Assembly (NCBI RefSeq): GCF_000176915.2
Contig: NC_014844.1
Location: 2,542,001-2,606,000, forward strand
Origin: Pseudodesulfovibrio aespoeensis Aspo-2
GTDB taxonomy: Bacteria; Desulfobacterota; Desulfovibrionia; Desulfovibrionales; Desulfovibrionaceae
Direction of reading: 5' to 3'
Length of the DNA: 64,000 nucleotides
Of the stretch, positions 16,923 through 51,802 are shown piece after piece (position 1 is the first letter of the stretch; the number at the start of each line of letters is the position of its first letter). Made by a program: the position numbers and the translations under genes. The notes under the pieces were generated by a model. The model was not told the origin of the DNA. It made no database searches and saw nothing but the letters and a program-made list of their open reading frames with translations.

Positions 16923-19238
16923 ATGAACAAAGATCTGCTTTCACTCATCGGCGGGACCCCGCTGGTGGAGATACGCCATCTCAACCCGAACCCGAACGTC
17001 AAGATTTTGGCCAAGCTGGAGGCGCAGAATCCCGGCGGGTCCATCAAGGACCGCGTGGCCGTGGCCATGATCGAGGCTGCCGAGCGGTCCGGCGAGCTGA
17101 CCAAAGACAAGATCATCATCGAGGCCACATCGGGCAACACCGGCGTGGGGCTGGCCATGGTCGCGGCCATCAAGGGCTACCGCATCAAGCTGCTCATGCC
17201 CGAGACGGCCAGCGAGGAGCGCAAGATGATCATGGCCGCCTACGGCGCACAGCTGGAACTGACGCCCGGCCACCTCTCCACGGACGGGGCCATCGAGCGC
17301 GCCTACCGCTACGCCCGCGAGGAGCCGGACACTTACGTGCTTATGGACCAGTTCAACAACCCCGCCTCCATCGACGCCCACTACCAAGGCACGGGCCTGG
17401 AAATCTGGGAGCAGACCGGCGGCGCGGTCACCCACTGCGTCATGGCGCTGGGCACCTCGGGCACGGCCATGGGCATTGCCAAGCGGCTGCACGAGATGGG
17501 CAAGGTCCATGTGGCTGCGGTGGAGCCCTACGCAGGCCACAAGATTCAGGGCCTCAAGAACATGCTCGAATCCTACCCGCCCGGCATCTACGACAAGACC
17601 TGGCTCGACGAGATCCTGCATGTGGACGACGAGACCGCCTTTGAATACTGCCGCAAACTGGCCAGGGCCGAGGGCATCTTTGCGGGCATGAGTTCCGGCG
17701 CGGCCCTGGGCGGGGCCATCCTCCTGGCCGAGCGGCTTCAGTCAGGTCTCATCGTGACCATCTTCCCGGACTCGGGCGAGCGCTACCTGAGCACCCACCT
17801 CTACCGCCAACAGGCGGGCAGCGGCATCACGCTTTTTGACATGGCCACGGGCGCGACCAAGCCCCTCAAGACCCAGGGGGGCCTGGGCCTCTACACCATG
17901 GGGCCGAACCTCGACAACCCGGACGGTCTCGACGCGTGGCGGCGGGTGGTGGTCCTCGACGTGCTGGCCCGCCACCTGCGCTCGCTCGGAGTGGAAACCC
18001 GCGCCGCCGTGGGATTGAGCGACATGGACGACCGCACCCTGACCGCAGCCCGGCACACCGACGCCGACCGGGCCGTGTTCGCAGCCGGGCTTCGCGCCCG
18101 GATCATGGAGCGCGCCCGCGACATGGGCGTGGCAGTGGCCGGGGGTGACGGTGCGGGCGTGGACTTCCCCCTCTCCTCAAACAGCGAGGGCAAGGCCCTT
18201 GAGCTGTGCCGCAAGCTGCTCGGCAAAGGGCTGGCCTACGAAAAGCTGCGCTCGGTCTACTTCGACATCTTCCGCGACAAGCGCTACGGCGAGATCGGAG
18301 CCATGGACATGGACAAGGTCTCGGGCGGGCGCACCGTGGACCTCGACGCCTACGTCAAGGACAATCCGCTGGACTTCACCCTGCTCAAACGCGCCACCCT
18401 GCTCGACCTCAAGCGCGGCGAGGTGCTGGAGACCGAATGGGGCAACGTGCGCCCGTCCTGGTTCCTGCAGCACGCGGCCACGGCCCTGACCAGCCTGCCC
18501 CGCATCGACGTGATGATCGGCAGCGAGAAACACCGCTTCCCCCACCTGGAAAATCTCCGGGCCATCTGGTCCGCTGCCGGGCGCGAGCTCCAGGCATGGC
18601 TGCTCAACCATCAGGCCACGGACTGCGCCGACGCGACCCTGACCACCGTGGCCGACACCCTGGGCGGATTCCGGGCGGCCCGGTTCTGGCTGCTCTCGTC
18701 CGCCTGCCGCAAGCCCCTGTGCGCCAGCAGCGACAACCTGGTCATGTGGGCGCGCAACTGGCGGCGGGTGCAGGAGGCCTTGGCGGCCCTGAGCGCGCCC
18801 CGGACCGGGGCGGCACCGTCGGGCGAAAGCGCGGGCAAAATCCCTGGCGAAGCCGATCAGGCCGTGTTCGACCTGCGCGCCGGATTCAAGACGGCCATGA
18901 ACGAGGACCTCGCCCTGCACCGCTTCTGGCCCGTGCTCTTCCGGTTCGTCAAACAGGTCAACGCCTGGGCCGCCGCAGGCGCGCTGACCGGCCCGGCAGC
19001 CTCGGCCTGCCTCGACGAGCTCCTGGCCGTGGACGCCATCCTCGGCATCCTCGACCACGCCCAGATGCCGCTCCCCCTGGCCGACCTGCCCATTGAGGTG
19101 CAGGGCATGCTGGCCGACCGCCAGAAGGCCCGCGAGGCCAAGGACTTCGCCGCCTCCGACGCCCTGCGCGACCAGATCGCCAACGCCGGATTCCGCCTGG
19201 AAGACACGGCAGGCGCACCAAGGGTGTTCAGGATGTAA
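16923..19238 (+). CDS. cysK: Fusion: PLP cysteine synthase - catalytically degenerate cysteinyl-tRNA synthetase
   Basis: The protein is 771 aa. Residues 1-305 are a complete O-acetylserine sulfhydrylase of the CysK/CysM fold: GGTPLVEI, PLP lysine in GGSIKDRVA (about K42), TSGNTGVGLA, GTSGTAMG and SGAALGG. Residues 320-771 align by pattern with class I CysRS: LYTMGPN matches MYVCGPT, GLSDMDDRT matches NFTDVDDKI, HRFPHLENLRAI matches the zinc-site helix, FWLLSSACRKPL follows, and a C-terminal DALRDQIANAGF anticodon-domain motif ends it. The zinc-binding Cys of MYVCGPT is Met, and the HIGH and KMSKS motifs are absent. Aminoacylation is therefore unlikely; a cysteine-sensing or regulatory role is my inference. 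The ATG follows CAGGGA. Confidence 0.87.
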   Translation: MNKDLLSLIGGTPLVEIRHLNPNPNVKILAKLEAQNPGGSIKDRVAVAMIEAAERSGELTKDKIIIEATSGNTGVGLAMVAAIKGYRIKLLMPETASEERKMIMAAYGAQLELTPGHLSTDGAIERAYRYAREEPDTYVLMDQFNNPASIDAHYQGTGLEIWEQTGGAVTHCVMALGTSGTAMGIAKRLHEMGKVHVAAVEPYAGHKIQGLKNMLESYPPGIYDKTWLDEILHVDDETAFEYCRKLARAEGIFAGMSSGAALGGAILLAERLQSGLIVTIFPDSGERYLSTHLYRQQAGSGITLFDMATGATKPLKTQGGLGLYTMGPNLDNPDGLDAWRRVVVLDVLARHLRSLGVETRAAVGLSDMDDRTLTAARHTDADRAVFAAGLRARIMERARDMGVAVAGGDGAGVDFPLSSNSEGKALELCRKLLGKGLAYEKLRSVYFDIFRDKRYGEIGAMDMDKVSGGRTVDLDAYVKDNPLDFTLLKRATLLDLKRGEVLETEWGNVRPSWFLQHAATALTSLPRIDVMIGSEKHRFPHLENLRAIWSAAGRELQAWLLNHQATDCADATLTTVADTLGGFRAARFWLLSSACRKPLCASSDNLVMWARNWRRVQEALAALSAPRTGAAPSGESAGKIPGEADQAVFDLRAGFKTAMNEDLALHRFWPVLFRFVKQVNAWAAAGALTGPAASACLDELLAVDAILGILDHAQMPLPLADLPIEVQGMLADRQKAREAKDFAASDALRDQIANAGFRLEDTAGAPRVFRM

Positions 19239-51725: not shown

Positions 51726-51802
51726 GCGCCCGTAGCTCAGCTGGATAGAGTGCCGGACTACGAATCCGTAGGTCGCACGTTCGAATCGTGCCGGGCGCAC
51801 CA
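51726..51802 (+). tRNA. tRNA-Arg (anticodon ACG)
   Basis: The 77-base cloverleaf has acceptor stem GCGCCCG / CGGGCGC, D arm GCTC / GAGT, anticodon loop CTACGAA (anticodon ACG, decoding CGN after A-to-I editing), T arm GCACG / CGTGC with TTCGAAT, and an encoded CCA. The terminator follows 8 bases later. AT-richer accessory DNA begins on its 3' side. Confidence 0.95.

Follow-up and report, generated by a model that had tools for sequence, protein, structure and literature searches.

The window analysed here is a stretch of 64,000 nucleotides from Pseudodesulfovibrio aespoeensis Aspo-2 (Desulfovibrionaceae; contig NC_014844.1, positions 2,542,001 to 2,606,000 of the forward strand), and the gene in question, at 16923-19238 on the + strand, encodes a cysteine synthase fused to a cysteinyl-tRNA synthetase (CysRS)-like half. 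The gene is a single open reading frame (ORF) of 771 codons, with its ATG at 16923 and its stop codon at 19236-19238. A first-pass annotation, made from the letters of the DNA, had described a complete cysteine synthase fused to a CysRS devoid of catalytic signatures; this description is borne out, with the correct ORF, coordinates and strand, the complete synthase being confirmed and its length reduced from 305 residues to about residues 1-296. In the Pfam analysis of the product, PALP was matched at 7-283 (232.4 bits), tRNA-synt_1e at 318-554 (68.9 bits, cut-off 27) and CysS_C at 721-761 (25.4 bits, cut-off 23). Among the NCBIfam profiles, the cysKM subfamily (TIGR01136) was barely reached (346 bits, cut-off 344.15), and the protein fell below the equivalog cut-offs of cysM (TIGR01138, 337.9 versus 394.2 bits) and cysK (TIGR01139, 307.1 versus 350.95 bits), as well as below the curated cut-off of cysS (TIGR00435, 113.2 versus 340 bits). 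The nearest synthase to residues 1-296 was E. coli CysM (2bhs, E 8.4e-75).

The CysRS match starts at about residue 301 and runs to residue 771. The C-terminal half aligned over nearly its full length with E. coli CysRS (1li5, 1li7 and 1u0b; E 8.6e-30, and 3.3e-55 by profile). The whole protein was modelled by AlphaFold2 with a predicted local distance difference test score (pLDDT) of 90.0 and a predicted template-modelling score (pTM) of 0.84. A Foldseek search with this full-length model returned, as its 50 best matches, only cysteine synthases and close pyridoxal 5'-phosphate (PLP) relatives, and the C-terminal half was therefore modelled by itself (pLDDT 92.9, pTM 0.92). The top Protein Data Bank (PDB) match of this second model was 1u0b_B, the CysRS in complex with tRNA-Cys (template-modelling scores 0.77/0.78, root-mean-square deviation 5.2, 493 alignment columns including gaps), in agreement with the CysRS fold proposed by the first-pass annotation. 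The features of the gene are collected in Table 1.

Table 1. Features of the fusion gene and their positions in the window.
Feature	Position	Strand	Basis
Cysteine synthase half, CysM-like, residues 1-296: K42 (PLP lysine), TSGNTG 69-74, GTSGT 177-181	16923..17810	+	
K212, aligned with E. coli CysM R210	17556..17558	+	alignment
Junction of the halves, residues 297-316	17811..17870	+	
Residues 318-554 of the CysRS-like half: Rossmann fold of class I, catalytically dead	17874..18584	+	Pfam, AlphaFold2 model, PDB match
M326 at the place of the first zinc Cys; other three places H517, H541 (kept), L545	17898..17900	+	alignment
HIGH place (GLDA, 335-338) and family-specific R341	17925..17945	+	alignment
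Residues 436-518, where conservation is highest in the CysRS-like half (YEKLRSVYFD, TVDLxxY, NPxDFTLLKR, WGNVRPSW); includes R490 and inserted Y477	18228..18476	+	
Deleted KMSKS loop region, about residues 565-575	18615..18647	+	
Helical bundle, residues 583-720	18669..19082	+	AlphaFold2 models
C-terminal anticodon-binding domain (CysS_C), residues 721-765	19083..19217	+	
R733, R737, F742 and D746, equivalent to E. coli CysRS R423, R427, W432 and D436 (G34 contacts)	19119..19160	+	alignments; PMC12684709 (partial text)

In the window protein, HIGH is replaced by GLDA, KMSKS is deleted and the zinc ligands C/C/H/E have become M326/H517/H541/L545, so that three of the four are lost and H541 is kept. 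The loss of HIGH and KMSKS announced by the first-pass annotation is thus confirmed, no intact site being found by alignment. To place these losses, 188 aligned fusions were set against a panel of 28 canonical CysRS, all of the latter from the same phylum. None of the 188 fusions presents HIGH, KMSKS and the zinc site jointly. Both HIGH histidines occur in a single fusion (L198), in which KMSKS is absent and one zinc ligand is missing; the second of them is present in 6 fusions and replaced in the other 182. The exact KMSKS was found in 0/188, the ATP-site GGG in 1/188 versus 26/28 canonical CysRS, and the position following HIGH (R341 in the window) is Arg in all 188 fusions versus S, A, C or T in 28/28 canonical enzymes. 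Within the Desulfovibrionales-type clade, none of the 102 fusions has all four zinc ligands, whereas 51 of the 86 others do. The replacement of the zinc Cys by Met, correctly seen in the window, is consequently not a defining trait of the fusion. Signature loss across the fusion family is graded and loss of zinc is not general to it. We infer the order of the losses, the base of the fused clade not being resolved on the tree.

This gradation raises the question of a residual ligase, in which some members would still activate cysteine and charge it onto tRNA or, in the manner of MshC, onto another amine. KMSRS is present in 17/188 fusions, 11 of them with a complete zinc site, and among 18 fusion genomes from outside the family, 14 have a fused half that scores above the cysS cut-off, with a top score of 457 bits; residual activity is therefore possible there. 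Nevertheless, the replacement of the second HIGH histidine in 182 fusions, the change of GGG in 187 and the Arg after HIGH in all of them argue against this explanation, and every signature is gone in the window protein, so that we consider a ligase very unlikely. The same scores imply that automatic annotation may count some fusions as a second cysteine-tRNA ligase.

A separate and normal cysS, a gene that the first-pass annotation had raised as a check, was found in the Aspo-2 genome (542 bits, 485-aa frame). This genome also carries a cysK (438 bits), which is followed on the same strand, after about 400 bases, by a cysE-like gene (171.7 bits, cut-off 210.65; E 2.5e-50). With normal cysS and cysK present, the fusion thus provides this strain with an additional cysteine synthase and an additional, dead CysRS. 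Of the 70 fusion genomes of the family, 68 (all but the drafts G083 and G109) show a further CysRS match, of canonical type where listed, and a separate cysS above the cut-off was found in 18/18 fusion genomes outside the family. The possibility that the cell has no CysRS other than the fusion was rejected on these grounds. In the drafts G083, G109 and G195, which carry the fusion, no cysS above the curated cut-off was found, probably as a result of assembly gaps. Two unusual CysRS-like genes were also met in these genomes. In G626 (C1:2100534-2101781), a third cysS-like frame, interrupted by a TAG, covers profile positions 1-404 only, apparently without an anticodon domain, and may correspond to CysRS*, which is known from Desulfobacterales. 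The other (L191, genome G426) is a divergent free-standing CysRS in which HIGN replaces HIGH and which stands on a long branch away from the other canonical rows.

The fusion is widespread. In a family sample of 149 genomes, 70 have a full-length relative of the C-terminal half at 42% identity or more (in two pieces in G061). In a phylum sample of 395 genomes, a profile match at E<=1e-75 was obtained in 146, spanning 97 of 246 genera, and all listed frames have at least 740 aa, a length compatible with the fusion; the fusion, which the first-pass annotation thought might be known in Desulfovibrionaceae annotations, is not limited to that family. Among the matching frames inspected, 87/91 were full fusions. 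The view beyond the phylum is that of the best 80 of at least 551 matches, among which the named carriers are Pseudodesulfovibrio, Solidesulfovibrio, Desulfohalobiaceae, Desulfobacterales, Desulfarculus, Syntrophaceae and others, placed by NCBI mostly in Thermodesulfobacteriota. In 59 family genomes, close relatives of the synthase half (at least 66% identity) lay in fused frames in 33 cases out of 33, and the next matches, at 49% identity or less, were in other frames and of CysK type. A tree built from 60 fusions together with 22 canonical rows placed the fused rows on one side of a branch supported by 100/100, and the fusion accordingly looks like the product of one origin. A spread to archaea was considered and rejected: the lone record labelled Methanococcoides (L136) carries a fusion gene whose DNA shares 93% identity with that of a deltaproteobacterial gene over 2238 bases, which points to contamination or a very recent transfer. 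In genome G260, a second copy of the fusion (L262, C8:24300-28000) has its CysRS-like part in a 503-aa frame and a synthase piece in another frame, the intact copy being located elsewhere in the same genome.

The fate of the CysRS-like half under selection was then considered. Eight pairings with near relatives gave a ratio of nonsynonymous to synonymous substitution rates (dN/dS) of 0.07-0.17 in the synthase half. For the CysRS-like part, the ratio was 0.14-0.31 in the 7/8 pairs where dS was computable; for the 41 anticodon codons it was 0.06-0.34 in 6/8 pairs. On these ratios, the CysRS-like half is under purifying selection and not decaying. The decay of a recent gene fusion was ruled out by this selection, the single origin and the phylum-wide spread. 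Most of the block 436-518 is roughly as conserved among fusions as in live CysRS: the 20-residue means from residue 440 are 0.73, 0.64, 0.79 and 0.68 in fusions versus 0.73, 0.62, 0.76 and 0.82. The family-specific R490 and the inserted Y477 are each present in 188/188 fusions. The loop 469-480 is highly conserved, yet it has a pLDDT below 50 in both AlphaFold2 models, and the synthase loop at about 201-220, which holds K212, is also less certain in the full model (block means 66 and 56); both loops may become ordered upon binding. Ordinary CysRS, too, has a flexible surface loop, according to sections of PMC11580382. A structural or dimer-forming remnant, with a C-terminal half that binds no ligand, would be compatible with the free divergence of the Rossmann and helical parts (mean identity of 0.27-0.37 at canonical columns in Desulfovibrionales-type rows). 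However, a remnant would not be expected to be kept phylum-wide from one origin, under purifying selection, with the new invariant residues R341, R490 and Y477 and with invariant anticodon residues, and we regard this explanation as quite improbable.

The part of the CysRS-like half which is best retained relative to canonical CysRS is the anticodon domain. In the E. coli CysRS-tRNA complex, G34 is touched by R427, D436 and W432, R423 taking part in a water network, according to sections of PMC12684709. The set R-(R/K)-aromatic-D, equivalent to positions 423/427/432/436, is retained in 185/188 fusions, or in 175/188 if Arg is required at 427. The equivalents of R423, D436 and R439 were found in all 188 fusions and that of D451 in 187. 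Regions were also compared over 130 columns conserved in 27 canonical CysRS, 8 of which belong to the anticodon domain. For the 102 Desulfovibrionales-type fusions, the mean identity is 0.84 in this domain versus 0.33, 0.55, 0.27 and 0.37 in four other regions (permutation p 0.002, a value weakened by its dependence on just those 8 columns, taken as independent). In the other 86 fusions, the mean identities are 0.91 in the anticodon domain and 0.54-0.63 elsewhere.

These results bear on the nature of the ligand. The dead synthetase could be a sensor of free cysteine which inhibits the synthase with no role for tRNA, as HisZ does for histidine (PMC9437257, partial text), and the four zinc ligands, which bind the thiol in CysRS, are indeed complete in more than half of the fusions outside the Desulfovibrionales-type clade. 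Such a pure amino-acid sensor would not need the anticodon set, which persists while completeness of the zinc site changes 6 times on an 82-row tree and 8 times on a quick 216-row tree, and the site is complete in no Desulfovibrionales-type fusion, the window protein included. We therefore hold a cysteine sensor to be unlikely. The suggestion of the first-pass annotation, cysteine or Cys-tRNA sensing, can be sharpened in this sense: in the window protein, the zinc pocket is unlikely to sense free cysteine because three of its four ligands are gone, and the residues predicted to read the anticodon are retained.

The synthase half was compared over 194 rows (174 distinct). K42 and S70-G74 are conserved in 194/194 of them and T181 in 193/194, and the half, retaining its catalytic residues, is predicted to make cysteine. 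In agreement with this prediction, the fusion is the sole cysteine synthase match in 7 of the 33 family genomes that carry it, where the profile search agreed for 7/7 over the cut-off, including the single-contig genome G051, and in 7 of 18 outside the family (E<=1e-30), giving 14/51 in total. No cysE match at E<=1e-20 was obtained in 13 of these 14 fusion-only genomes, the remaining one (G013) having a weak match under the cut-off. If serine acetyltransferase is indeed missing there, O-acetylserine would not be expected in fusion-only genomes. In addition, the residue at the place of CysM R210 is Lys in 194/194 rows, and this position is linked, in some organisms, to a preference for O-phosphoserine (PMC3805590, partial text). 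The acceptor substrate is thus likely, on these sequence grounds, to be O-phosphoserine rather than O-acetylserine. Two sets of observations weaken this assignment. With an unchanged threshold, the cysE search gave a match in 10/14 control genomes and none in the other 4, and the control for genomes with both fusion and CysK consisted of the window genome alone. Moreover, the CysM enzymes of P. aeruginosa and C. jejuni are reported to take O-acetylserine and not O-phosphoserine, so that a basic residue at the R210 place is insufficient proof of O-phosphoserine use.

A PLP enzyme, the probable use of O-phosphoserine and the probable binding of tRNA-Cys meet in this protein, as they would if the synthase half acted on serine phosphate borne by tRNA-Cys in the way of archaeal SepCysS. 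However, the TSGNTG asparagine loop, which in cysteine synthases holds the free carboxylate of the substrate, is retained in the fusion, and a normal CysRS is encoded in 18/18 genomes; synthesis on the tRNA appears extremely improbable.

We give even chances to the interpretation that the gene encodes a cysteine synthase that carries, as its C-terminal half, a CysRS converted into a regulator which binds tRNA-Cys. The C-terminal half would still bind tRNA-Cys through its GCA anticodon, the binding or the charging state of this tRNA would be relayed to the synthase half and would alter its rate, and cysteine would be made from O-phosphoserine, instead of O-acetylserine, when uncharged tRNA-Cys piles up. 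In E. coli CysRS, a communication path from the anticodon domain to the catalytic core is described (PMC9976931, partial text), and the ancestor of the fusion may therefore already have had means to relay the presence of a bound anticodon. The most complete form of this proposal, a phylum-wide O-phosphoserine-dependent synthase allosterically controlled by tRNA-Cys (GCA anticodon) through a dead CysRS, is advanced tentatively, as somewhat less probable than even. Such a tRNA-gated enzyme would possibly combine the ingredients of the archaeal tRNA-dependent route (O-phosphoserine, a PLP enzyme and tRNA-Cys) as a separate invention.

Several observations weigh against a tRNA-gated synthase. The residues of the anticodon domain could be retained for folding alone, and W482 of this domain is gone in 102/102 Desulfovibrionales-type rows. 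In the three closest pairs, dN/dS of the anticodon codons (0.34, 0.28 and 0.21) is overall no lower than in the rest of the C-terminal half (0.30, 0.26 and 0.25). The helical bundle retains only 0.37 of its conserved residues in the Desulfovibrionales-type fusions and the net charge of the CysRS-like half is near neutral; contact with the rest of the tRNA may therefore be weak. No gene neighbour recurring across the phylum was found; in Desulfovibrionaceae an MptE-like gene lies divergently beside the fusion, and in Desulfobacterales an ORF of unknown nature does so. No leader RNA or T-box was found in the window, where Rfam at gathering scores detected one tRNA and nothing else, and the folding of the leader was no stronger than that of shuffled sequences (z 0.40).

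The retained anticodon domain and the fusion itself could also be explained by a scaffold, in which the C-terminal half would keep the synthase beside tRNA-Cys or the normal CysRS and channel cysteine with the rate of the synthase unchanged; the conserved block 436-518 would then be a possible contact surface. Against this stand the release of free cysteine expected from the synthase, the normal CysRS being a separate protein in each of the 18 genomes outside the family, and the absence of a recurring partner gene nearby across the phylum. A scaffold seems improbable to us. A conserved operon partner was likewise ruled out, the neighbours being clade-specific only.

The proposed control of the synthase by tRNA-Cys can be compared with known systems. 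In the CysK-CysE complex, a cysteine synthase is controlled by an attached protein; the partner there is serine acetyltransferase, which was unmatched in all but one of the fusion-only genomes. The proteins of the SepRS-SepCysS-SepCysE system, which we take to be unrelated to the fusion, convert phosphoserine on the tRNA, whereas fusion genomes have a normal CysRS and the synthase retains the loop for a free amino acid. The likeness lies in the union of O-phosphoserine, tRNA-Cys and a cysteine-forming enzyme (PMC5424206, partial text). HisZ is described as a paralog of HisRS without adenylation activity and as the regulatory subunit, with HisG, of ATP-phosphoribosyltransferase (PMC9437257, partial text). 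As in the fusion, a catalytically dead synthetase paralog is tied to the biosynthetic enzyme of the same amino acid, with a normal synthetase alongside. Unlike HisZ-HisG, the fusion involves a class I and not a class II synthetase, a homolog of CysRS and not of HisRS, a covalent link, the last and not the first enzyme of the pathway, and anticodon residues which are kept. In Gcn2, uncharged tRNA binds a HisRS-like domain (PMC4335047, partial text), and a synthetase-like domain which binds uncharged tRNA thus switches an attached enzyme, as might, by analogy, be the case in the fusion; Gcn2 differs in being a yeast protein of class II that switches a kinase instead of an amino-acid synthase. 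HisZ, a regulator of its own pathway, and Gcn2, a sensor of uncharged tRNA, are therefore each a precedent for one half of the proposed mechanism.

MshC is also derived from CysRS, and MshC structures were matched by the C-terminal half of the fusion. With 413-414 residues, the MshC chains cover no more of the profile than positions 7-309 of 467, whereas the CysS_C domain is present in the window protein. Among the CysRS paralogs, MshC and CysRS* are named in sections of PMC9437257, both described as active, CysRS* being without an anticodon domain. The fusion is the mirror image of these two proteins, with catalytic signatures lost and anticodon domain kept. Among the papers listed in searches of the open full-text literature, none on the fusion was found, subscription papers and protein-database annotations lying outside that search, and the available parts of PMC2922099, PMC5424206, PMC9437257 and PMC11580382 do not mention it.

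If the proposed control by tRNA-Cys is true, a tRNA would itself tune the enzyme that makes its amino acid. To our knowledge, no earlier bacterial case of this kind is known. It would also explain how sulfate reducers living with high sulfide match the production of cysteine to protein synthesis. The 188 aligned fusions form a natural series in which a synthetase has been dismantled to varying degrees (HIGH, KMSKS and zinc site) with its putative tRNA-reading residues retained, and this series makes selection on synthetase paralogs directly testable.

In the window, the fusion gene stands alone, the MptE-like gene diverging upstream and a gene of the aldehyde dehydrogenase family, presumably proA, converging downstream. 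At nine Desulfobacterales-type loci, the fusion is followed by an ORF on the same strand which, in at least 6 of them, overlaps the end of the fusion by 1 base; for one 288-aa product of this ORF (L152:6395-7258), no Pfam match was obtained. The sole RNA gene found in the window is a tRNA-Arg (anticodon ACG) at 51726-51802.

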